Shown here in pieces: positions 44,348-55,311 of a stretch of 64,000 nucleotides of DNA. Positions within the stretch are counted from its first letter, which is position 1. Each line of letters starts with the position of its first letter. Position numbers and translations under genes: made by a program. The notes below the pieces were generated by a model. That model searched no databases, was not told the origin of the DNA, and was given only the letters and a program-made list of their open reading frames with translations. Location: assembly GCF_001697185.1 (NCBI RefSeq), contig NZ_CP014224.1, forward strand, positions 3,332,501-3,396,500, read 5' to 3'. Source of the DNA: Wenyingzhuangia fucanilytica (lineage in GTDB: Bacteria > Bacteroidota > Bacteroidia > Flavobacteriales > Flavobacteriaceae).

Positions 44348-44815
44348 ATGAGCATTACACTAATAATTAACAAAAAAAAACACACAGTTGATGTAGATGA
44401 AGACACGCCTTTGCTTTGGGTGTTAAGAGACACATTAAATTTGGTGGGAACCAAGTTTGGTTGTGGAATTGAACAGTGCGGTGCTTGTACGGTACATATA
44501 AATGGAGATGCAATGCGTAGTTGTACGTTACCTGTTTCCTTGTTAAAAAATGCAGAAATTACAACTATAGAAGGGTTGTCTGATGACAATTCTCATCCGG
44601 TACAGGTTGCTTGGAAAGAAATAGATGTACCTCAATGCGGTTACTGTCAATCTGGACAAATTATGACTGCTTCGGCATTGGTAAACAAAAACAATAATCC
44701 TAGCAATGATGAAATAAAACAAGCAATGAAAGGGAATATTTGTAGATGTGCTACTTATAAGAGAATAGAAGAAGCGGTTTATGTGGCGGCAAAATTAACT
44801 CAAGAAAAAGCATAA
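44348..44815 (+). CDS. [2Fe-2S] subunit of an IorA/xanthine-dehydrogenase-like molybdenum hydroxylase
   Basis: 155 residues with two [2Fe-2S] clusters. The plant-type cluster uses Cys39, Cys44, Cys47 and Cys59, and the helical cluster uses Cys97, Cys100, Cys132 and Cys134. It carries electrons from the Mo site of the next gene. There is no signal peptide, as usual for this small subunit, which is co-exported with its Tat-bearing partner. It starts a four-gene operon with the Mo subunit, XdhC and MocA-like genes. Confidence 0.93.
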   Translation: MSITLIINKKKHTVDVDEDTPLLWVLRDTLNLVGTKFGCGIEQCGACTVHINGDAMRSCTLPVSLLKNAEITTIEGLSDDNSHPVQVAWKEIDVPQCGYCQSGQIMTASALVNKNNNPSNDEIKQAMKGNICRCATYKRIEEAVYVAAKLTQEKA

Positions 44816-44818
44816 ATA

Positions 44819-46957
44819 ATGGAAACAAAGTCGTCATTACAAGTTGATAGAAAAACTTTTATCAGAGTATCTGCTTTGGCAGGAGTTGGAATTGTTTTTG
44901 GAGCTAATTTTTTTCAAAGTTGTGAGTCAAAAAAGGAGAAAAAGATAGACTTGTCAAAGCTCAATTACAATGATTTTAATGCATATATAAAAATTTCTAA
45001 CAAAGGAATGGTAACCATATATTCTCCCAACCCTGAAATTGGTCAAGGAGTAAAAACTGCTATGCCTATGATTATTGCAGAAGAGTTAGATGTGCCTTGG
45101 GAACATGTTTTGGTAGCGCAAGCTGATCTAGATCCTAATAATTTTAAAAGACAAGTAGCCGGAGGGAGCCAATCAATTAGAAAATCTTGGATGCCATTGA
45201 GAGAAGTTGGAGCCACTGCCAAACAAATGTTGATAAATGCAGCCGCTATAAAATGGGGTGTAGATGCTTCAGAATGTACAGCTGAAAAAGGGATTATAAA
45301 AAATAAAAAAGGCGATGAATTAGGGTATGGCGATGTGGTTTTAGATGCTGCAAAGCTAGAGGTGCCAACAAAAGTTATACTTAAAGATCCTAAAGATTTT
45401 AAATTGATAGGAAAAGAAAAAAGAAATGTAGATATAGATAAAATTATTTCTGGAGAACCTTTGTTTGGCATGGATTATAAAGAAGATGGAATGCTATATG
45501 CTGCTATTATTCATCCGCCAGCTTTTGGACAAAAATTAATAGATTTTGATGCTAAAGAAGCCAAACAAATAAAAGGAGTAGAAGATGTTGTAGAGGTTGA
45601 TGGAAATATTGCTGTATTGGCTACGAGTACATGGTTGGCTTTTAAAGGAAAAAAAGCAGTAAAAGCAAATTGGAGTACTAACCAAACATTTGATGGAACA
45701 AAGGAGATTGATGAAAAGTTAAACAACCTGTTGACCGAAAATAAAGGGACTTTAGTAAGAGAAGATGGAAGTGTTAAGGAGGGGTTTTTAAACGCAGATA
45801 GTGTGATAGAAAAAACATATGAAGCTCCTTTTTTACCACATAATACTATGGAACCTATGAACTTTTTTGCGCATGTAACTCCAGAAAAAATTCATTTAAG
45901 AGGACCTATACAAGCACCTCAGGATGCAGTGAGGCGTGTAGCAAAAATGTTAAACAGGAAGGAAAGCGATATTACATTAGAAATGTGTAGAATAGGAGGA
46001 GGTTTTGGTAGAAGGCTGTATAATGATTATATCATAGAGGCAGTGTTGATTTCTGAAAAAGTTAAAAAACCTGTAAAACTTGTGTATCAAAGAGAAGATG
46101 ATATGACTGCAGGAATTTATAGACCTCAGGTTAAATATCAGTTTAAAGCAGGGGTTAAAAAAGGTAGATTGGTTGCCTATCAATTAAAAGAAGCAGCAAT
46201 AAATGCTGGTATTAACGAATCTAGAGCTAATTTTTTTCCTGCAGGTTCTGTAGAAAATTACAGAGTAGAAACATCTCCTTTAAAAAGCAGTATTACTACG
46301 GGTGCATGGAGAGCTCCAATTTCTAATTTTTTAGGTTTTGCAGAACAAAGCTTTTTTGATGAATTGGCGGAGGAAATGAACATTGATCCTGTGCAGTTAA
46401 GGTTAGATTTATTAGCAAAAGCAAAGAAAAATAAAAGCAATCGCATGCAATATTCTCCAGAAAGAATGGAAGGGGTAATTAAAGATGTAGTGCAAAAATC
46501 AGGTTGGGGAAAAAAAGAAAATGTTTATCAGGGATTTAGTGCATATTACAGTCATAACAGTCATGTTGCGCAAGTAGCAGAAGTTGAATTGCAAGATGAA
46601 AAACCTGTTGTTACAAAAATTTATTGTGTTGTAGATTGTGGAATTGTGGTGAATCCAATGGGAGCAATAACACAAGCAGAAGGAGGTATTATTGATGGTT
46701 TTGGACATGCTATGTATGGTGAAATGTTAATTGATAAAGGAGTACCTCAGAGTAAAAATTTCCATCAATATAATTTAATTAGAATACACCAAGTACCAAA
46801 AATAGAGGTCAGTTTTGTGAAAAGTAATGAAGCTCCAACAGGTTTAGGGGAACCTACTTTGCCTCCAGTAGCGGCAGCTGTTGCCAATGCTATTAAAGCT
46901 GCTACGGGGGAGCGTATTAGGAAACAACCATTTGTGAATAGTGGAAATATTATTTAA
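44819..46957 (+). CDS. Molybdopterin-binding subunit of an IorB-like aldehyde/xanthine-type hydroxylase, exported
   Basis: 712 residues. The N-terminus has a Tat-like motif DRKTFIRVSALAGVG in which the second Arg is Lys (RK rather than RR), so export by Tat is likely but not textbook. The Mo cofactor loop GGGFGRR is at about 393-399 and the active-site Glu is Glu678 in GLGEPTLPP. Single-chain IorB organisation, with no cytochrome c domain. Substrate unknown: N-heterocycles and aldehydes are known for this group. Three bases after the small subunit. Confidence 0.9.
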   Translation: METKSSLQVDRKTFIRVSALAGVGIVFGANFFQSCESKKEKKIDLSKLNYNDFNAYIKISNKGMVTIYSPNPEIGQGVKTAMPMIIAEELDVPWEHVLVAQADLDPNNFKRQVAGGSQSIRKSWMPLREVGATAKQMLINAAAIKWGVDASECTAEKGIIKNKKGDELGYGDVVLDAAKLEVPTKVILKDPKDFKLIGKEKRNVDIDKIISGEPLFGMDYKEDGMLYAAIIHPPAFGQKLIDFDAKEAKQIKGVEDVVEVDGNIAVLATSTWLAFKGKKAVKANWSTNQTFDGTKEIDEKLNNLLTENKGTLVREDGSVKEGFLNADSVIEKTYEAPFLPHNTMEPMNFFAHVTPEKIHLRGPIQAPQDAVRRVAKMLNRKESDITLEMCRIGGGFGRRLYNDYIIEAVLISEKVKKPVKLVYQREDDMTAGIYRPQVKYQFKAGVKKGRLVAYQLKEAAINAGINESRANFFPAGSVENYRVETSPLKSSITTGAWRAPISNFLGFAEQSFFDELAEEMNIDPVQLRLDLLAKAKKNKSNRMQYSPERMEGVIKDVVQKSGWGKKENVYQGFSAYYSHNSHVAQVAEVELQDEKPVVTKIYCVVDCGIVVNPMGAITQAEGGIIDGFGHAMYGEMLIDKGVPQSKNFHQYNLIRIHQVPKIEVSFVKSNEAPTGLGEPTLPPVAAAVANAIKAATGERIRKQPFVNSGNII

Positions 46958-46971
46958 AAGTCTGTAATAAT

Positions 46972-47985
46972 ATGACCCATGAATTTAAGAAAATAATTGA
47001 GGCTTATGCCAAGGTCTTTGCTTTAGGTAAACAAGCGGTGTTAGCTACATTGGTGGAGGTGAATGGCTCTTCTTATAGAAAGGAAGGAGTGCGTATGTTG
47101 GTGTTAGAAAATAGTGAAACTATAGGGGCTGTTAGTGGTGGTTGTGTAGAAAAAGAAGTGGTGCGGCAAGCACAATCTGTGTTTAAAACAGGGCAATCTA
47201 AATTAATTAGTTACGATGGTAGGTATAGGTTAGGTTGTGAAGGAACACTTTTTCTTTTTCTTGAAAAATTAAGTATTGCAGAGGAGGTGCTGTTTAAAAT
47301 TCAGCAATCATTTATTCGTAGAGCTTCTTTTATTTTAACTACTTTTTATGGAGATGTATCTAGTGTAGGAGGAGGTACAACAATTCAGTTTAATGATGAG
47401 AGATATCCAATTTCTGATGTTCATCAAAAAGTAAATTTACCTCATCTATATAGTCAGACTTTACAACCAGTATTTCAGTTGTATATTATAGGTACAGAGT
47501 ATGATGCTGTTAGTTTAAGTCGGCAAGCATCTTTTTTAGGTTGGGAGGTTATTGTTGTTAATACAACCAAAACGATAAAGTCTACGGATGAGTTTACAGG
47601 AGCTAAAAAAATAATCAATACGCTAGAGAACGAAGATGAAGAATTGTGTATAGATGCTGAAACAGCTGTGGTGTTGATGAATCATAATTATGCAAAAGAC
47701 TTGTTGTTTTTAAAAAAATTAAAAAATTCTAGACCTATTTATATAGGTTTGTTAGGTGCAAAAAAAAGGAGGGAACAGCTGTTAAACACTTTAATAGAGG
47801 AAGATCTAGAGGTTTCCGAAACTTTTTTAGAACTTATCCATGGGCCAACAGGCTTAGACATTGGTGCAGTAACTCCACAAGAAATAGCTGTTTCTATTGT
47901 TTCTGAAATTATTATGATGACCAAAAACAAAGCTTTAACACATTTACAAAGCAATACTGTTTTTAAACTTTGCAGTGTAACATGA
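46972..47985 (+). CDS. XdhC-family molybdenum-cofactor maturation protein
   Basis: 337 residues. N-terminal XdhC/CoxI motif GSSYRKEGVRMLV and GAVSGGCVE; C-terminal Rossmann-like half LYIIGTEYDAVSL and the GPTGLDIGAVTPQEIAVSI end. XdhC proteins bind the cofactor, add the terminal sulfido ligand and deliver it to the hydroxylase. Located 14 bases after the Mo subunit, in line with a dedicated chaperone. Its TGA stop overlaps the next ATG (ATGA). Confidence 0.9.
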   Translation: MTHEFKKIIEAYAKVFALGKQAVLATLVEVNGSSYRKEGVRMLVLENSETIGAVSGGCVEKEVVRQAQSVFKTGQSKLISYDGRYRLGCEGTLFLFLEKLSIAEEVLFKIQQSFIRRASFILTTFYGDVSSVGGGTTIQFNDERYPISDVHQKVNLPHLYSQTLQPVFQLYIIGTEYDAVSLSRQASFLGWEVIVVNTTKTIKSTDEFTGAKKIINTLENEDEELCIDAETAVVLMNHNYAKDLLFLKKLKNSRPIYIGLLGAKKRREQLLNTLIEEDLEVSETFLELIHGPTGLDIGAVTPQEIAVSIVSEIIMMTKNKALTHLQSNTVFKLCSVT

Positions 47986-48587
47986 TCTCATCTACTGCTT
48001 TTTTAATTTTGGCTGCAGGAGGTTCTGCAAGAATGCAAGAACCCAAACAGCTGCTGCCTTTTAAAAATGAGATGTTGTTAACACATACCATTAAACAAGT
48101 ATTAGGGGTTTCTAAGCAACATGTATTTGTGGTGTTAGGGGCAAATTATAAATCCATTTCTAAAACTATTCAAGGTTTTTCTATAGAAGTGTTACAACAT
48201 CTAAAATGGGAAAAAGGAATAGGAAGTTCTATTGCTTTTGGAGTGTCACAAATTCAGAAAAAAAACAAATATCAAAGAATAGTAATAGTGTTGTCAGATC
48301 AGCCTGAGGTTTGTTCAAAAGACCTTGAGCAAGTTTTAGAGAATCACATTATCAATAAAAATAAAATTACAGTAACCGCTTGTTATAATTATACAGGGGT
48401 GCCCGCTGTTTTTGATAAGGATTTTTTTGAAGAGTTAAAAAAATTATCTGATGATACAGGTGCTAAATCCATCATAAAAAGAAATCAATGTCAGGTTTCT
48501 CACTTTAAAATTGATAAAGAAATCTTGGATATAGATACCTCAGATGATTATGATAAAATGTTAAAAAAATTAACTACTCTAGAATAA
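47982..48587 (+). CDS. MobA/MocA-like nucleotidyltransferase, molybdenum-cofactor cytidylyl- or guanylyltransferase
   Basis: 201 residues from the ATG at 47982, overlapping the XdhC stop by ATGA; the frame to TTG 47970 is not needed. LAAGGSARMQEPKQLLPF (early) is the nucleotidyltransferase P-loop-like signature, and VLSDQPEV is the Mg2+-binding Asp region. In this operon it probably attaches CMP to molybdopterin to make the dinucleotide form used by the hydroxylase. MocA and MobA cannot be separated by eye, but MCD is the usual cofactor of xanthine-oxidase-family enzymes. Confidence 0.82.
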   Translation: MISSTAFLILAAGGSARMQEPKQLLPFKNEMLLTHTIKQVLGVSKQHVFVVLGANYKSISKTIQGFSIEVLQHLKWEKGIGSSIAFGVSQIQKKNKYQRIVIVLSDQPEVCSKDLEQVLENHIINKNKITVTACYNYTGVPAVFDKDFFEELKKLSDDTGAKSIIKRNQCQVSHFKIDKEILDIDTSDDYDKMLKKLTTLE

Positions 48588-48598
48588 AGCGGTAAAAA

Positions 48599-48630
48599 TC
48601 ACGAATTATCAGTTATGAATTAGGAATTAA
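48599..48630. repeat. Degenerate tandem AT-rich spacer after the molybdenum operon
   Basis: CACGAATTATCAGTTATGAATTAGGAATTAAAT is built of GAATTA-type units, like the other tandem spacers of this window. Confidence 0.4.
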
Positions 48631-48746
48631 ATACAAAGGTTTATTTTAGCATTTTGTTAAGAATGTGGGTTCATTAGTTATAAAGTTTTGATGAACTATT
48701 TTTAAAACATGTAGTTAAACAAATCAACGATTAAACAATATAAAAA

Positions 48747-49112
48747 ATGGGAATTATTAGAGTACAAAATATTAGAATTTACAGCAATCATGGATGTTTG
48801 CAAGAAGAAGCAAAAATAGGTTCTCATTACCGAGTAGATGTTGAGGTAAAGGTAGGTTTAAAGAAATCTGCTATTTCTGATAAGTTAGCGGATACGGTGA
48901 GTTATGTTGATATCAATGAAATTGTTGAAGAAGAAGTTTTGCAACGTTCAGAATTGTTAGAACATGTGGTAGAGAGAATATTGGTAAGAATGATGAAAGA
49001 AATACCGATGATTAAAAAAGCAAAGGTTGCGCTTTCAAAATTAAACCCACCAATTGGTGGAGATGTGGAATCTGTAACCATAGAAATGACTAAAAAAAGA
49101 AGAGATTTATAA
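48747..49112 (+). CDS. folB: Dihydroneopterin aldolase
   Basis: 121 residues. It cleaves 7,8-dihydroneopterin to 6-hydroxymethyl-dihydropterin in folate synthesis. The N-terminal IRIYSNHGCLQEEAKIG block and the conserved SYVDI segment fit. The length is standard. It is a lone gene 58 bases before tRNA-Cys; other folate genes are not nearby. Confidence 0.93.
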   Translation: MGIIRVQNIRIYSNHGCLQEEAKIGSHYRVDVEVKVGLKKSAISDKLADTVSYVDINEIVEEEVLQRSELLEHVVERILVRMMKEIPMIKKAKVALSKLNPPIGGDVESVTIEMTKKRRDL

Positions 49113-49128
49113 AATATTAAAAAGATTG

Positions 49129-49158
49129 TTGCGAAACACAATATTTTATATAAATTTG
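49129..49158 (+). promoter_or_regulatory. Promoter of tRNA-Cys
   Basis: TTG at 49129-49131, then exactly 19 bases, then TAAATTTG at 49151-49158: a textbook Bacteroidota promoter. The tRNA begins 12 bases downstream. Confidence 0.8.
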
Positions 49159-49170
49159 CATTCGCGTTTT

Positions 49171-49244
49171 GGCCTTGTGGCCGAGTGGCTAGGCAGCGGT
49201 CTGCAAAACCGTCTACAGCGGTTCGAATCCGCTCGAGGCCTCCA
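49171..49244 (+). tRNA. tRNA-Cys (anticodon GCA)
   Basis: Cloverleaf folds fully: acceptor GGCCTTG pairs with CGAGGCC, the anticodon stem GCGGT pairs with ACCGT around the loop CTGCAAA (anticodon GCA at 49202-49204), the T-loop GTTCGAATC is present, and the discriminator is T at 49241, as expected for tRNA-Cys. The CCA end (49242-49244) is encoded. Confidence 0.97.
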
Positions 49245-49248
49245 AAAC

Positions 49249-49281
49249 AAACCCACCAATTTTCATTGGTGGGTTTTTTTA
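49249..49281 (+). terminator. Terminator of tRNA-Cys
   Basis: AAACCCACCAAT (49249-49260) pairs with ATTGGTGGGTTT (49265-49276), loop TTTC, then T-run. The 207 bases from here to the next ATG (49489) contain another AT-rich tandem-like stretch and no gene. Confidence 0.9.
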
Positions 49282-49488
49282 TGCGTAAAACTTTTTAGGT
49301 TTTTAAGCCCCCATCCTGTGGTTTACGCAAATCTCACTTCTATTCCTGTTTTTTAACAGGACAAATTGTTTCATAAAGTCTTAACTTTAAACTTTAAGTC
49401 ATATCAAAAAACATTTTCTTGTTTTTTATAAAGTCAAGTATGTTGGTTTTCAATCTTCTAGTACTTGTTTAATGTGTTAAATAGAAAT

Positions 49489-50283
49489 ATGAATACAATT
49501 ATATTCACAGATTTAGATGGAACTTTTTTAAACCATGACGATTATTCTTTTGAAGCTTCAAAAGAGGCAAGGGAGCGAATTTTAAAAAAACAAATTCCAT
49601 TAATTTTTACAACTAGTAAAACCAAAATAGAAGTTGAGTTGCTGCAAAAAAAAGTGGGGATTCAAGAACCCTTTATTGTAGAAAATGGGGCTGCTCTTTT
49701 TATTCCGAAAGATTACAAAGGATTTGATTTTTCTTTTTTAAAAGAATTTGGAGACTATTATGTATTGCAGCTTGGAGTGAGTTATGAGAAAGTAGTAGCA
49801 TTTTATAATAGTTACAAAACTGAATATGGCATGTTTGGATTTAGTGATATGACGATAGATGATGTGGTAAAACACACAGGTTTACCTCAAGAAAGTGCTA
49901 AGCTTTCTAAACAAAGAGGCTTTACAGAACCTTTTGTTCTTAAAGAGGGAGCTCAAGTAGAAAAGTTAGAAAAAATGGCTTCAGAAAATGGTTTGAAAAT
50001 AACCAAAGGAGGAAGATTTTATCATTTAATAGGAGAAAATCAAGATAAAGGAAAGGCGGTAGAAAAATGTGTTAAAATCTTTGAAGAATGTTATCAAACT
50101 AAAATCAAGTCTATTGGTCTGGGCGATGGTGAAAATGATATTCCGCTATTGGCCAGTGTAGACATCCCTATTGCAATAAAAAATCATGAAGGAAATTATG
50201 TAAATCTACCAACCAATAAATTGCAAAAATCCACATATAAAGGAGCAAAAGGTTGGAACGAAATGATATTAAAAAATGTATAG
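49489..50283 (+). CDS. HAD-family mannosyl/glucosyl-3-phosphoglycerate phosphatase
   Basis: 264 residues from the ATG at 49489; the frame to TTG 49465 is not the start. The nucleophile Asp8 and Asp10 are in FTDLDGT (6-12), the TTSKT motif II follows and the acidic motif is GLGDGENDIPLL. This is the MPGP subfamily of HAD phosphatases, which remove the phosphate from mannosyl- or glucosyl-3-phosphoglycerate. First gene of a four-gene operon; it overlaps the glycerate kinase by 8 bases. The paired glycosyltransferase and GH13 phosphorylase point to glucosyl rather than mannosyl product. Confidence 0.85.
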   Translation: MNTIIFTDLDGTFLNHDDYSFEASKEARERILKKQIPLIFTTSKTKIEVELLQKKVGIQEPFIVENGAALFIPKDYKGFDFSFLKEFGDYYVLQLGVSYEKVVAFYNSYKTEYGMFGFSDMTIDDVVKHTGLPQESAKLSKQRGFTEPFVLKEGAQVEKLEKMASENGLKITKGGRFYHLIGENQDKGKAVEKCVKIFEECYQTKIKSIGLGDGENDIPLLASVDIPIAIKNHEGNYVNLPTNKLQKSTYKGAKGWNEMILKNV

Positions 50284-51427
50284 AAAAGAATTAGAGAACA
50301 TATATTACAAAGCTTTAAACAAGGTAAAAGCAACGTCTTTAATAAAAGATAATCTTTTTATAAAGGATGATGTGTTAACCATTGTTGGAACTGATTATCC
50401 TTTAAAAAACTATGAAAACGTTTTTGTTTTTGGAGTAGGAAAAGCGGCTTATGATATGGCCAAAGAATGTGAAGTTATTTTAGGTGATAAAATTGCAGGC
50501 GGATTGGTGATTTCTACTTCAAAAGGAGAATTAAAATATGCAAAACACTATACATCTACACATCCATTGGTTTCTGAAAAAAGTGTTGAAGCTGCTAGTT
50601 TGTTGATAGATGAAGTATCTAAATTATCAGAGAGAGATTTATTTGTGTTTTTATTATCTGGTGGTGCTTCTGCCATGATAGAAAAACCAATTGATGGTTT
50701 GACTTTGGAGGATTTTACAAAAATATCTTCCTCATTGTTGACGTCTGGAATAGACATCAAAGCATTAAATACGGTAAGGAAATCTATTTCACAAATCAAA
50801 GGTGGAAAGTTGGCCAATCATATAAAAGCAAAAGGAGAGGTTCTAGTGTTGAGTGATGTGATTGGTGATGATTTGCATACTATTGGTTCGGCGCCTATGA
50901 ATAACGGACAATTTCCGCATCATATTATAGGGAACAATGGCATCGCTTTGCAAGAAGCCGAAATTTATATAGAACCCAAAGTTGATTTTACCAAAATTGT
51001 AACCACAACTTTAGAAATGAGTTCAGAAAAGGCAACGCAGTTGATTTGTGATGAAATTAAAAAACACGACAAGCAATACAATAGTTTTTGTTTACTGTTT
51101 GGAGGGGAAACTACTACTGTAGTATTGGGTGATGGTTATGGAGGAAGAAATCAAGAATTGGCATTAAGGCTGTTGATGACTGATTGTATCACACAAAATA
51201 TTTCTTTATTAAGTGCTGGTAGCGATGGAATTGATGGTAGGTCTAACGCAACAGGTGCTTTTGTAGATTACGATATATATAAACAAATAACTAACAAGAA
51301 TATAGAACCCAAAACCTATTTAAAAAATAGTGATAGCAACACGTTTTTTAAAACCTTAGGTTATGATTTTGTAACAGGAATTTCTGGAACAAATGTGATG
51401 GATTTTATAATCGTATTAAAAAAGTAA
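50276..51427 (+). CDS. Glycerate kinase (MOFRL family, class II)
   Basis: 383 residues. FVFLLSGGASAMIEKP marks the active-site loop and AGSDGIDGRSNATGAFVD the C-terminal MOFRL block. This class phosphorylates D-glycerate to 2-phosphoglycerate with ATP. In this operon it would return the glycerate released from glucosylglycerate to glycolysis. Its ATG is within the end of the phosphatase gene (8-base overlap), and the GT gene follows 7 bases after its stop. Confidence 0.9.
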   Translation: MYRKELENIYYKALNKVKATSLIKDNLFIKDDVLTIVGTDYPLKNYENVFVFGVGKAAYDMAKECEVILGDKIAGGLVISTSKGELKYAKHYTSTHPLVSEKSVEAASLLIDEVSKLSERDLFVFLLSGGASAMIEKPIDGLTLEDFTKISSSLLTSGIDIKALNTVRKSISQIKGGKLANHIKAKGEVLVLSDVIGDDLHTIGSAPMNNGQFPHHIIGNNGIALQEAEIYIEPKVDFTKIVTTTLEMSSEKATQLICDEIKKHDKQYNSFCLLFGGETTTVVLGDGYGGRNQELALRLLMTDCITQNISLLSAGSDGIDGRSNATGAFVDYDIYKQITNKNIEPKTYLKNSDSNTFFKTLGYDFVTGISGTNVMDFIIVLKK

Positions 51428-51434
51428 AAAGAAT

Positions 51435-52646
51435 ATGGCAGATTTTTTTCAAAACGGAGTAATTACAACTTTACAAAATTTAGGTGATAGATCTTTAGAA
51501 GATTTAGAAAGAGAACTAGAAGAGTTTAGTGAGAGAAGAGGAATGTTGTTAATGTTGCCAGCTTTGTATTCTGAGTTTGAAACCCCGGCAATGCACAAAA
51601 TTATAGAAGAATTAAAGCATGTAAAATACCTGTATAAAATTATTTTAGGGTTAGATCAAGCCACCGAAGAACAGTTTGAAGAAGTAAAAAAATTAATGTC
51701 GGTTTTGCCTTGTAAGGTAGAAGTACTATGGAACGATGGACCTAAAATAAAAGAGCTTTATGCAGAGTTAACTGCCGAAGGTTTTCCGGGCTTAGAAACT
51801 CCAGGGAAAGGAAGAAATGTTTGGACCATGATTGGTTATGCTTTGGCAGATAAAGATGCTTATGCTTTTGCGCTTCACGATTGTGATATTGTAAATTATA
51901 GTAGAGAAATTCCAGCAAGGTTATTTTATCCTATTGTACATCCTGCTTTAGATTTTGAATTTAACAAAGGGTTTTATTCCAGAGTGACAGATAAATTACA
52001 CGGTAGAGCTACCAGGTTGTTGTATACTCCTTTGGTAAATTCTTTGGCTAAAGTTTATGGAGAAAGTAAGTATTTAGATTATATGGGGAGTTTTAGGTAT
52101 TCATTGTCCGGAGAATTTTCTTTTATAAGATCGTTGGCAAGAGGTATTGGAATCTCACCCACTTGGGGTTTAGAGGTTTCAACTTTAAGTGAGGTTTATA
52201 AAAATACTTCTAACAAAAGAATTTGTCAGACTGAAATAATGGAGAGTTACGAGCATAAACATCAAGATTTAGGAGATCAAATTTCAGGGTCAGGAATTTA
52301 TAAAATGTCTAAAGATATTGCCAAAACTTTGTTTAGGGTATTGGCTCAAGAAGGTGTTGTATTTTCTAGAGCATCCTTTAAAACTTTGTTAGCAACCTAT
52401 TTTCAAGAATCAAGATTTGAGATCTCTAAGTACAATGCTTTAAGCAAGTTAAATGCTTTGGAATATACTAGAGAAAAAGAAATTAAAGCAGTAGAGGCTT
52501 TTCAGAATGCTATTGAAGAAGCCTCTACAGAGTTTTACGAAGATCCAATGGGAACACACTCTCTTTCTTCTTGGATTACAGTAAGATCGGTAATGCCAGA
52601 GTTTTCAGAAAAATTTGTTAAGTACGTTAAAAAAGATAATGAATAG
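51435..52646 (+). CDS. GT81/GpgS-like glucosyl-3-phosphoglycerate synthase, probable
   Basis: 403 residues. A GT-A-type fold with an early LPALYSEFETPAMHKI strand, GKGRNVWTMIGYALA for the nucleotide sugar, and the metal-binding DCDIV (DxD) in ALHDCDIVNY. The pattern fits the GpgS family that joins NDP-glucose to 3-phosphoglycerate, though mannosyl-type enzymes share the fold. The stop is immediately followed by the phosphorylase ATG (0 bases), so coupling is strong. Phosphatase, kinase and phosphorylase neighbours all use glucosylglycerate-related substrates, which is the best argument for this role. Confidence 0.78.
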   Translation: MADFFQNGVITTLQNLGDRSLEDLERELEEFSERRGMLLMLPALYSEFETPAMHKIIEELKHVKYLYKIILGLDQATEEQFEEVKKLMSVLPCKVEVLWNDGPKIKELYAELTAEGFPGLETPGKGRNVWTMIGYALADKDAYAFALHDCDIVNYSREIPARLFYPIVHPALDFEFNKGFYSRVTDKLHGRATRLLYTPLVNSLAKVYGESKYLDYMGSFRYSLSGEFSFIRSLARGIGISPTWGLEVSTLSEVYKNTSNKRICQTEIMESYEHKHQDLGDQISGSGIYKMSKDIAKTLFRVLAQEGVVFSRASFKTLLATYFQESRFEISKYNALSKLNALEYTREKEIKAVEAFQNAIEEASTEFYEDPMGTHSLSSWITVRSVMPEFSEKFVKYVKKDNE

Positions 52647-54365
52647 ATGAGACATATTTCAGACAAAGAACACACCATCAATAAAAGATTACATAAATTA
52701 TATCCGCCAGAAATTGCAGATAGGGCAGTAGATAGCATCATCGATTTGATTTTTAAATACAAATCAAGAATAAAATCTACCCCTTATCAGTTAAGCGAAA
52801 AAGATGTGATTTTAATTACCTACGGAGATCAAGTTAATAAAGATTACGAACCTTCTTTGTTAACTTTAAAAGGTTTTATGGATAAGCATTTAAAAGGAAT
52901 TATCAATTCGGTTCATATTTTACCTTTTTATCCATATTCTTCTGATGATGGATTTTCAGTAGTAAATTATGGAGCTGTAGATCCTAAAATGGGATCATGG
53001 AGAGAAATTGAACAAATTAGTGGAGCGTATAGATTAATGGTTGATGGAGTTATCAATCATATTTCCCAATTTTCAGATTGGTTTAAGGCTTATTTGGCTG
53101 GTGACCCATATTTTCAAGATTTTTTTACAGAAGTAGATCCGTCTATAGATTTAAGCAAAGTAGTGAGGCCAAGAGCCTTGCCCTTGTTAAGTGAATTTGT
53201 AGATGATGCAGGAAAAACAAGGCATGTATGGACTACCTTTAGCAAAGATCAGGTAGATTTAAATTATAAAAGTCATAGAGTTTTAAGAAATGTATTAGAT
53301 GCCCTTTTTTATTATGTAGAAAAAGGAGCTACGCTAATTAGATTAGATGCGATTGCTTTTATATGGAAAGAAATTGGGACAGAGTGTGTGCATTTAGAAC
53401 AAACCCATGAACTGATTCAGCTGATGAGAGAAGTGTTGCACGAAGTAGCACCAGAGGTAATTATCATTACAGAAACCAATGTGCCTCACCACGAAAATGT
53501 TTCTTATTTTGGAAGTGGTGATGATGAAGCACAAATGGTTTATAATTTTGCTTTGCCTCCATTATTGGTACATTCTATTTTAACAGGAAATACCAAAACG
53601 CTAACAGAATGGGGAAAAACATTGACTTTGCCGAGTGATAAAGTCTGTTTCTTTAATTTTACTGCAAGTCATGACGGAATTGGATTAAGACCCATCAAAG
53701 GAATTTTAACAGAAGAAGAGGTTCAAAATTTAGGAGATACGGTAAAATCACACGGAGGTTTGGTGTCTTACAAAACTGATGCGGATGGAAGTCAAAGTCC
53801 ATATGAGCTAAATTGTAGTTATATAGATGCTTTAACACATCCTGATAAAGATGATGAGGTTCGATTTAAAAGAATGTTATTAGCTCAAGCTACTGTTCTT
53901 GCCATGCCCGGAGTTCCAGGAATTTATTTTCATTCCTTAGTAGGGTCAAGAAATTACAAAGATGGTGTAAAGCATTCTGGGGTAAATAGAACCATTAATA
54001 GAGAAAAATATCATATCGATTGGTTAGAAAAAGAATTGGCTACAGAAGGAACTTTGGCTAAAAAAATGTTAGAACGTTATAAAGCATTAATTGCTATTCG
54101 TATTCACGAACCTGCATTTAATCCTTTTGGAAAATTTGAGTTTTTAGAGTTAGGAAATCAACTTTTTGCGGTAGATCAGCATAGTGTAGATAATAAAGAA
54201 AGAATTGTAACCATACATAATTTTTCAGATAAAGAAGTGAGTTGTGAATTGCCAGAGAAAATTTCTTTAACCTTAAAGGATTTATTGGGTTCTAATACAG
54301 AAATTTCAACGAATTCTATCAGTTTAAAACCTTATCAATTAATGTGGTTAAAAGGAGAGTTATAG
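52647..54365 (+). CDS. GH13 subfamily 18 phosphorylase, probably glucosylglycerate phosphorylase
   Basis: 572 residues. TIM-barrel alpha-amylase-family enzyme: nucleophile Asp234 (LIRLDAIAF), acid/base Glu276 (ITETNVPHH), and SHDGIGLRP (341-349) with Asp343 as transition-state stabiliser. Subfamily 18 contains sucrose phosphorylases and the glucosylglycerate phosphorylases (E. coli YcjM has the latter activity). It would convert glucosylglycerate and phosphate to glucose-1-phosphate and glycerate. Last gene of the operon. Sucrose or sucrose-6-phosphate phosphorylase cannot be excluded without assay, but the other genes support glucosylglycerate. Confidence 0.8.
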   Translation: MRHISDKEHTINKRLHKLYPPEIADRAVDSIIDLIFKYKSRIKSTPYQLSEKDVILITYGDQVNKDYEPSLLTLKGFMDKHLKGIINSVHILPFYPYSSDDGFSVVNYGAVDPKMGSWREIEQISGAYRLMVDGVINHISQFSDWFKAYLAGDPYFQDFFTEVDPSIDLSKVVRPRALPLLSEFVDDAGKTRHVWTTFSKDQVDLNYKSHRVLRNVLDALFYYVEKGATLIRLDAIAFIWKEIGTECVHLEQTHELIQLMREVLHEVAPEVIIITETNVPHHENVSYFGSGDDEAQMVYNFALPPLLVHSILTGNTKTLTEWGKTLTLPSDKVCFFNFTASHDGIGLRPIKGILTEEEVQNLGDTVKSHGGLVSYKTDADGSQSPYELNCSYIDALTHPDKDDEVRFKRMLLAQATVLAMPGVPGIYFHSLVGSRNYKDGVKHSGVNRTINREKYHIDWLEKELATEGTLAKKMLERYKALIAIRIHEPAFNPFGKFEFLELGNQLFAVDQHSVDNKERIVTIHNFSDKEVSCELPEKISLTLKDLLGSNTEISTNSISLKPYQLMWLKGEL

Positions 54366-54447
54366 CGCTTATATTGATGTTAAACTTTTTTGAGAAATAA
54401 CATTTCGTTCTAAAGTCATTTTATATCTTTAAATAAAATCTTTAGAA

Positions 54448-55311
54448 ATGACTTTGTACCCAATAGAATCTGGAAACTTTATGCTAGATGGAGGAGCTAT
54501 GTTTGGTGTTGTGCCTAAGGCCATTTGGCAAAGAACCAATCCTGCAGACGCAACAAATAAAATAGATATTGGAATGCGTTGTTTGTTGATAGAGGATGGA
54601 GATCGATTAATTTTAATTGATACCGGTTTAGGAGATAAACAAGATGATAAATTTTTTAGCCATGTAAGTCCTTGGGGCGATTTTACTACAGATCTTTCTT
54701 TAGCAAAATATGGATTTCACAGAGATGATATTACAGATGTTTTTTTAACGCATTTACATTTTGATCATGTAGGTGGGGCTATTCAGTGGAATAAAGACAG
54801 AACTTTTTTAGAACCTGCATTTAAGAATGCAACTTTTTGGTCAAATGCCAATCATTGGCAATGGGCTACTGAGCCTAATCCTAGAGAAAAAGCATCATTT
54901 TTAACAGAGAATATCAATCCTATTCAAGAAAGTGGACAATTAAAATTTGTTTCGATTAGCGGAAATCAGAAAGCGCAGACATCAGAGCTAGGGTTTGGCA
55001 TCTTTTTTGCCGATGGACACACGGAAAAACAAATGATTCCTATGATTCAGTATAAAGGAAAAACAGTTGTTTTTATGGCCGATTTATTACCAACTATTGG
55101 GCATATTCCATTGCCGTATATCATGGGGTACGATACAAGACCTTTGTTGACTATGTCAGAAAAAGAATTATTTTTGAACGAAGCGGCAAAGAACGAATAC
55201 ATTTTGTTTATGCAGCACGACGCTCACAACGAGTTGTGTACAGTTCAGCAAACAGGAAAAGGAATAAGATTAAAAGAAACATATACATTTAACCAGATAT
55301 TTAATTCATGA
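54448..55311 (+). CDS. Metallo-beta-lactamase-fold hydrolase
   Basis: 287 residues. The metal motif HxHxDH is HLHFDH at 102-107, preceded by LIDTGLG (57-63), with further ligands in the middle and FMQHDAHN at the end. No signal peptide, so cytosolic. The family includes lactonases, esterases and other hydrolases. Its TGA overlaps the protease ATG (55308-55311), so the two genes are coupled. Substrate unknown. Confidence 0.85.
   Translation: MTLYPIESGNFMLDGGAMFGVVPKAIWQRTNPADATNKIDIGMRCLLIEDGDRLILIDTGLGDKQDDKFFSHVSPWGDFTTDLSLAKYGFHRDDITDVFLTHLHFDHVGGAIQWNKDRTFLEPAFKNATFWSNANHWQWATEPNPREKASFLTENINPIQESGQLKFVSISGNQKAQTSELGFGIFFADGHTEKQMIPMIQYKGKTVVFMADLLPTIGHIPLPYIMGYDTRPLLTMSEKELFLNEAAKNEYILFMQHDAHNELCTVQQTGKGIRLKETYTFNQIFNS

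Follow-up and report, generated by a model that had tools for sequence, protein, structure and literature searches.

The four-gene unit at 49489-54365 (+ strand) of the window, a stretch of 64,000 nucleotides from the genome of Wenyingzhuangia fucanilytica, is a real and well-formed operon, most likely functional in the synthesis and recycling of glucosylglycerate (GGA). As a whole, we read it as a charge-and-discharge cassette for this solute, acquired in one piece from a Campylobacterota-type donor, and give this reading a probability of roughly 0.87. The genes lie head to tail and encode, in order, a predicted glucosyl-3-phosphoglycerate phosphatase of the MPGP/HAD-IIB family (GpgP, 49489-50283), a predicted MOFRL-type (class II) glycerate kinase (50276-51427), a predicted GT81-like glucosyl-3-phosphoglycerate synthase (GpgS, 51435-52646) and a predicted GH13_18 glucosylglycerate phosphorylase (GGaP, 52647-54365), all on the + strand. 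The first two genes overlap by 8 bases, 7 bases separate the second from the third, and the fourth follows the third with a 0-base gap. The start of GpgP was taken as the ATG at 49489, a longer frame opening at TTG 49465. This layout and these families had been described from the letters alone in an earlier annotation, the sequence-only reading, and the reading frames, junctions and family matches confirmed them. Such an arrangement can hardly be due to chance, since four adjacent genes fit one pathway and their order is shared by many genomes.

As for the proposed cycle, whose substrates and direction of flux we infer from the protein families and motifs, GpgS would transfer glucose from a nucleoside diphosphate glucose to 3-phosphoglycerate, and GpgP would remove the phosphate to yield GGA, accumulating as a nitrogen-free compatible solute. 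Once the solute is no longer needed, GGaP would cleave GGA by phosphorolysis, giving D-glycerate and glucose 1-phosphate; the kinase would then turn D-glycerate into 2- or 3-phosphoglycerate, both halves thereby re-entering central metabolism. The MOFRL class of kinases makes 2-phosphoglycerate. The four activities, the GGA product and the combination of synthesis with recycling had been put forward in the sequence-only reading, and the present comparisons support them. Since both arms running at once would burn nucleotide triphosphates, control is to be expected, perhaps osmotic or nitrogen-dependent and acting on genes that are presumably co-transcribed. The same enzymes might also serve another purpose, GGA being mainly a carbon/phosphate buffer or a nitrogen-starvation store, consumed by GGaP and the kinase at times of carbon shortage, and not an osmolyte, which is a possible but less probable variant, compatible with the cassette reading. 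In its favour are the presence of both arms in one unit and, in the accessible part of a 2024 study of Prochlorococcus NATL2A, the opposite shifts of synthesis and recycling transcripts of a 'glucosylglycerate metabolism operon' in dark-tolerant cells (PMC11631117). However, an osmolyte role fits the same genes equally well, and in that part of the study its authors favour a possible uptake of external GGA over a greater use as a store (PMC11631117).

The identity of the fourth protein as a glucosylglycerate phosphorylase is well supported by its conserved residues. It is GH13_18-like, with PF00128 above cut-off, and its alignment with E. coli YcjM places the GH13 catalytic triad at D234, E276 and D343, exactly where the sequence-only reading had it. 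According to the available sections of a 2020 review, glucosylglycerate phosphorylases carry two marks: a (T/S)ETN motif, located at the tip of strand 5, and a conserved loop-A Glu (PMC7178133). The protein of the window has T275-E276-T277-N278 (TETN) and E387 in loop A, its acceptor-site residues N278 and E387 matching those of YcjM. A TETN-type motif and the loop-A Glu were found in 66/66 aligned relatives, including the characterised YcjM of E. coli MG1655; this count covers aligned proteins of at least 350 bits and leaves out L102, L106, L108, L124 and L125 (cut by the locus end) and later-fetched loci (L numbers designate our loci). Among 20 other GH13 proteins of Flavobacteriaceae used as controls (L018-L037), none has either the motif or the Glu at these sites: 12 carry an NLDLYQ loop, which fits the sucrose-phosphorylase motif of the review, and eight belong to another GH13 type, the letters ETN occurring elsewhere in the sequence in four of the 20. 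This sucrose-type loop is absent from the operon GGaP, and the match to the sucrose phosphorylase model TIGR03852 (225 bits) stays under its cut-off of 334. A sucrose phosphorylase identity was rejected, as the marker residues do not fit. In the accessible portions of the literature, the (T/S)ETN motif, loop-A Glu and catalytic triad are shared by the GH13_18 phosphorylases of Meiothermus silvanus and Spirochaeta thermophila and by YcjM (PMC7178133, PMC8950772), the direct residue comparison having been made here with YcjM only. The neighbours of E. coli ycjM differ from those of the window, being ABC-transporter and glucoside-modifying genes and not gpgS.

Concerning the glycosyltransferase, no Pfam family was matched at E 0.001, and the best model is NF040724 GpgS_Meth (E 3e-95, 319 bits). 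With a profile built from eight of its relatives, solved GpgS chains are matched at E 1.3e-6, in an alignment that brings the GKG, DxD and GRVT stretches together. The DxD motif pointed out in the sequence-only reading was recovered as D149-C-D151; H148, D149 and D151 are invariant across 30 aligned sequences, and so are G190, R191 and R194. The GRxT loop has a role in GpgS. The predicted structure, a GT-A fold with a mean predicted local distance difference test score (pLDDT) of 90.6, has its best match in solved glucosyl-3-phosphoglycerate synthases: in a comparison with the PDB, GpgS structures occupy ranks 1-21, and nothing but GpgS, MpgS (mannosyl-3-phosphoglycerate synthase) and unnamed mycobacterial entries appears in ranks 1-47 of the 50 listed.

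These ranks bear on a mannosylglycerate cassette, in which the transferase would be an MpgS, the phosphatase a true MpgP, and the GH13 protein would serve another glucoside. The best solved relatives of the phosphatase are indeed named MpgP, the MpgS of R. xylanophilus is among the structural neighbours of the transferase, and one protein of the genome matches the GMP_PMI mannose-1-phosphate guanylyltransferase model, at 300 bits and under the cut-off of 373. Such a cassette nevertheless appears very unlikely: the best model of the transferase is GpgS, 21 GpgS chains outrank the first MpgS, its conserved partner belongs to the glucoside phosphorylases and has the residues of the glycerate site, and the related Campylobacterota operons usually have galU in fifth place.

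The phosphatase itself matches the MPGP subfamily model TIGR01486 at 222 bits (cut-off 164.75) and remains under the narrower MPGP equivalog cut-offs (NF001218, 223/362 bits; TIGR02461, 210/244 bits). Its alignment with Thermus MpgP 3ztw (E 2.7e-32) brings together the HAD motif stretches FTDLDGT and GLGDxxND. The kinase matches both DUF4147 (PF13660, 191 bits) and MOFRL (PF05161, 110 bits) above cut-off, as well as the Thermotoga glycerate kinase 2b8n (E 7.9e-61). It is the sole PF13660 match in the genome, where the PF02595 kinase family has no match. In two other loci, an apparent natural fusion of GpgP and glycerate kinase was seen: L087:5769-7979, from a Gallionellales bin, is a single frame matching the phosphatase and the MOFRL kinase, and L166:8771-10861, from a Campylobacterota genome, is likewise one open frame. 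A Pseudoalteromonas megaplasmid (L039:6266-8005) encodes a phosphatase of 580 residues, of which the N-terminal 300 have no Pfam match at E 0.001.

The distribution of the unit was analysed on the best 80 of at least 577 GpgS relatives, a set that describes near relatives only. Neighbours were counted as phmmer matches to the four proteins of the window within 4 kb of GpgS, the kinase being searched for with the MOFRL protein. Among these 80 loci, the order GpgP, kinase, GpgS, GGaP on one strand was found in 13 (one Wenyingzhuangia and 12 Campylobacterota bins), and all 13 loci with the four genes within 4 kb share one order and strand. GpgP-GpgS-GGaP occurs on the same strand in 29 loci and with GGaP on the opposite strand in 10; GpgP-GpgS alone accounts for 18, and other layouts, some ending at contig edges, for the last 10. 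A PF02595 kinase lies near GpgS in L071 and L095 only. The GpgS gene of L053 (Wenyingzhuangia sp. 2_MG-2023) is located at C200:187882-189090, on the minus strand. The search for orthologous four-gene clusters that the sequence-only reading had proposed was fruitful, at the expense of its claim that the parts of such a cycle are not commonly found in one unit: other Wenyingzhuangia and Campylobacterota have these four genes in identical order, and, as far as the accessible text goes, a Prochlorococcus operon with both arms has been published (PMC11631117). A uniquely novel four-gene cycle was consequently rejected.

GpgS is present in 5/397 Flavobacteriaceae genomes, including that of the window, in 3/237 genera and in 7/7 Wenyingzhuangia genomes; in 395 genomes of the phylum, NF040724 is matched once, in the genome of the window. 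The operon is rare in Flavobacteriaceae and kept across its genus, a place of occurrence which seems new. In a sample of Campylobacterota, GpgS was found in 13/298 genomes, one of which corresponds to scan locus L067; all four genes are in order in 10 of the other 12, and no two of the sample loci are identical over the last 300 GpgS residues. The Campylobacterota operons (L054-L057, L059-L064, L067, L077, L155-L162, L164 and L165) have the same four genes, order and strand as the window, the nearest of them reaching 83% identity for GpgS and more than 1000 bits for GGaP. They differ by galU as a fifth gene in 18/22 cases: a galU-like gene stands at the expected distance just after GGaP in 11/12 scan loci and 7/10 sample loci, the contig ending there in one (L156) of the three sample loci without it. 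GalU was above its cut-off in both proteins tested (L067, L054). No galU follows GGaP in the nine flavobacterial operons, L137 being cut inside GGaP. The GpgP-GpgS-GGaP clusters, mostly of marine Gammaproteobacteria and including two Alphaproteobacteria plasmids (L040, L041), have three of the four genes adjacent, but no MOFRL kinase within 4 kb, and their GpgS is about 45-50% identical to that of the window. In L065, L066 and L070, GpgS adjoins a second glycosyltransferase of about 416 residues with a mannosylglycerate-synthase-like domain (PF21969), which perhaps extends the solute by another sugar.

A galU in fifth position is what a glucose cycle needs, and this bears on the closed cycle that had been claimed for the operon. 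Both arms are present, as claimed; closure, for its part, did not stand, as the re-activation of glucose 1-phosphate would need an enzyme encoded elsewhere, galU being part of many Campylobacterota versions. The genome encodes four PF00483 proteins, which include RmlA and GlgC above their cut-offs and no clear GalU, and a search with the UDPGP family PF01704 gave no match in this genome and none in the control genomes either. With glgC and rmlA, the host probably has the means to make ADP-glucose and dTDP-glucose.

Flavobacteriaceae also hold GGaP in another setting. A close GGaP (at least 47% identity) occurs in 10/397 genomes of the family, five with GpgS and five without, and in all five GpgS-less loci (L048-L052) GGaP lies between a gene for a sodium:solute symporter and one for a PF02595 glycerate kinase. 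They are probable uptake-and-burn (scavenging) loci for GGA, and L048 additionally holds an MGH1-like glycoside hydrolase. Because a glycerate kinase, of two different families, accompanies GGaP in both designs, there is good evidence that glycerate would be the second product of this enzyme. In the available sections of the review, a glycerate kinase, GpgS or GpgP gene is described as a frequent companion of GGaP genes (PMC7178133). That the window's own operon would be a scavenging one, its phosphorylase and kinase burning imported GGA and its transferase and phosphatase being secondary, is the least probable of the alternatives: GGaP loci with transporters do exist in Flavobacteriaceae, E. 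coli and Meiothermus taiwanensis, but no transporter is found among the eight proteins scanned from 46972 to 55308, GpgS is present in all 7 Wenyingzhuangia genomes, and in the loci read from these it is accompanied by GpgP.

Concerning the origin of the cassette, the nine flavobacterial operon rows form one group inside Campylobacterota, with Shimodaira-Hasegawa-like approximate likelihood ratio test (SH-aLRT) values of 99 for GGaP (41 rows) and 93 for GpgS (42 rows). Their neighbours in the trees are L067, L077, L155 and L156, which are titled Halarcobacter and Campylobacteraceae where named. In approximately unbiased (AU) tests, a Campylobacterota-only clade was rejected in the GGaP and GpgS trees (p-AU 4e-5 and 9e-4, respectively). 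The scavenging GGaPs form a clade separate from the operon GGaPs, and a joint clade of the former with the flavobacterial operon GGaPs was rejected as well (p-AU 5e-4, in a run leaving out L042, L076, L080, L083 and YcjM). In the kinase and phosphatase trees, which had fewer rows (L044-L072 and a few others, without L077, L135-L137 and L155-L166), the flavobacterial rows stand beside L067. Since these rows nest inside Campylobacterota, transfer of the whole cassette is the simplest reading of the trees, and their topology suggests its direction: a flavobacterial ancestor would have acquired the block from a Campylobacterota-type donor, the flavobacterial unit being without galU. Taken alone, this block transfer is highly probable, much more so than a hairpin switch, which is discussed below.

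Two further observations concern the mobility and composition of such units. Plasmid 1 (41 kb) of Psychrobacter cryohalolentis K5 (L038) carries GpgP and GpgS, the latter 74% identical to that of the window; the 12 kb read there hold neither GGaP nor a MOFRL kinase. In the first tree, this plasmid GpgS stood among the Campylobacterota rows, beside L056, and may be a further sign of mobility; the later GGaP and GpgS trees (41 and 42 rows) left it out. In L054-L056, L155 and L157-L160, GpgS and GGaP are near those of the window, whereas the phosphatase and kinase, at about 190-260 bits, are much further removed; these operons look like mosaics, their front two genes appearing as if of other history.

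Several points weigh against the cassette reading. At 319 bits, the transferase does not reach the curated cut-off of 700 of NF040724, a model which, by its name GpgS_Meth, is tuned to a narrow group. The GpgS fold does not tell glucosyl from mannosyl donors, the first MpgS (3f1y) appearing at rank 22, and the MPGP phosphatase family takes mannosyl and glucosyl substrates alike. The kinase lies far under the cut-offs of two glycerate 2-kinase models (NF040791, 188/670 bits; NF041176, 170/550 bits). Most of the wider GpgS-family loci are without a nearby MOFRL kinase, and in L163 and L166, which have GpgP, kinase and GpgS, no GGaP was found in the 16 kb read. All 12 Campylobacterota scan loci come from metagenome bins, although the contigs that carry the sample loci L155 and L157-L160 measure 2.2-3.2 Mb. 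The trees were quick ones, and the groups submitted to the AU tests were named after the first tree had been seen. Finally, BCCT transporters, the only osmolyte-uptake family searched for, gave no match.

The genome is a single contig of 3,427,057 bases. A foreign base composition of the operon was set aside, its G+C content (0.327) matching that of the window (0.324). Upstream lie a tRNA-Cys gene (49171-49244) and a terminator-like stem (49249-49276), and downstream a gene for a metallo-beta-lactamase-fold hydrolase (54448-55311). The tRNA-Cys gene precedes the operon here; L044, L045 and L047 share this arrangement, whereas L046 and L053 do not. Insertion at this gene was also set aside, there being no sign of it, and a script comparison of 49161-49290 with 54341-54460 found no shared stretch of at least 8 bases. 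An apparent molybdenum hydroxylase set occupies 44348-48587, with two subunits recognised by eye and XdhC-like and MobA-like proteins by Pfam; it is closely followed by folB and the operon.

Between the tRNA-Cys gene and the operon, 49326-49430 is a conserved non-coding block, present upstream of the operon in several Wenyingzhuangia genomes and in G002; its RNA fold has a z-score of -3.7. Within it, 128 bases before the first ATG, the palindrome CCTGTTTTTTAACAGG (49345-49360, + strand) could fold as an RNA hairpin and is a candidate operator or leader element. It has a single exact match in the genome and one more place at one mismatch. Its stem and spacer are kept in six aligned upstream regions, A/G changes preserving G-U or A-U pairing; of the nine regions compared, two (L053, L046) show no such element and one (L137) has a degenerate form. 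TAnnTTTG, which we take to be the Bacteroidota -7 motif, occurs at 49151, before the tRNA-Cys gene, and nowhere between this gene and the operon. Sigma-70-like matches were not above those of shuffled sequences (20 vs. a mean of 22.4), and an Rfam search gave the tRNA alone above gathering score. The conserved hairpin may control the operon. A fuller proposal would make the unit a self-contained GGA module that passes as a block from one phylum to another, here without the galU of the donor-type operon; a locus-specific leader hairpin at 49345-49360 would set its single transcript to synthesis or breakdown, and GGA would act less as a plain osmolyte than as a reserve of glucose 1-phosphate and phosphoglycerate that can be switched. 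We consider it doubtful.

Among known systems, the Prochlorococcus NATL2A operon resembles this one in the co-location of GGA synthesis and recycling genes, and differs from it, in the portion of the study at hand, by an immediately adjacent transporter gene and by its phylum (PMC11631117). Our full-text literature search, outside which most subscription papers fell, found no glucosylglycerate paper with Sulfurovum or Arcobacter, none joining glucosyl-3-phosphoglycerate synthase, glycerate kinase and phosphorylase, and, in the accessible parts of some of the papers combining glucosylglycerate with Bacteroidetes or Flavobacteri-, no description of this operon. The unit is likely a GGA gene set of a known type, its interest lying in its rarity in Flavobacteriaceae, its probable transfer as a block and its value as a test bed for GGaP.

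With this operon, a group of marine Flavobacteriaceae can be counted among the probable bacterial producers of glucosylglycerate, and a compact natural system would encode the making and burning of one solute together. The metabolic function of GGaP was, according to the available sections of the 2020 review, then without experimental confirmation (PMC7178133). A host with a single such operon makes the role of this enzyme in the cell directly testable, and the Flavobacteriaceae themselves include both presumed makers and presumed scavengers of glucosylglycerate, which can be set against each other.

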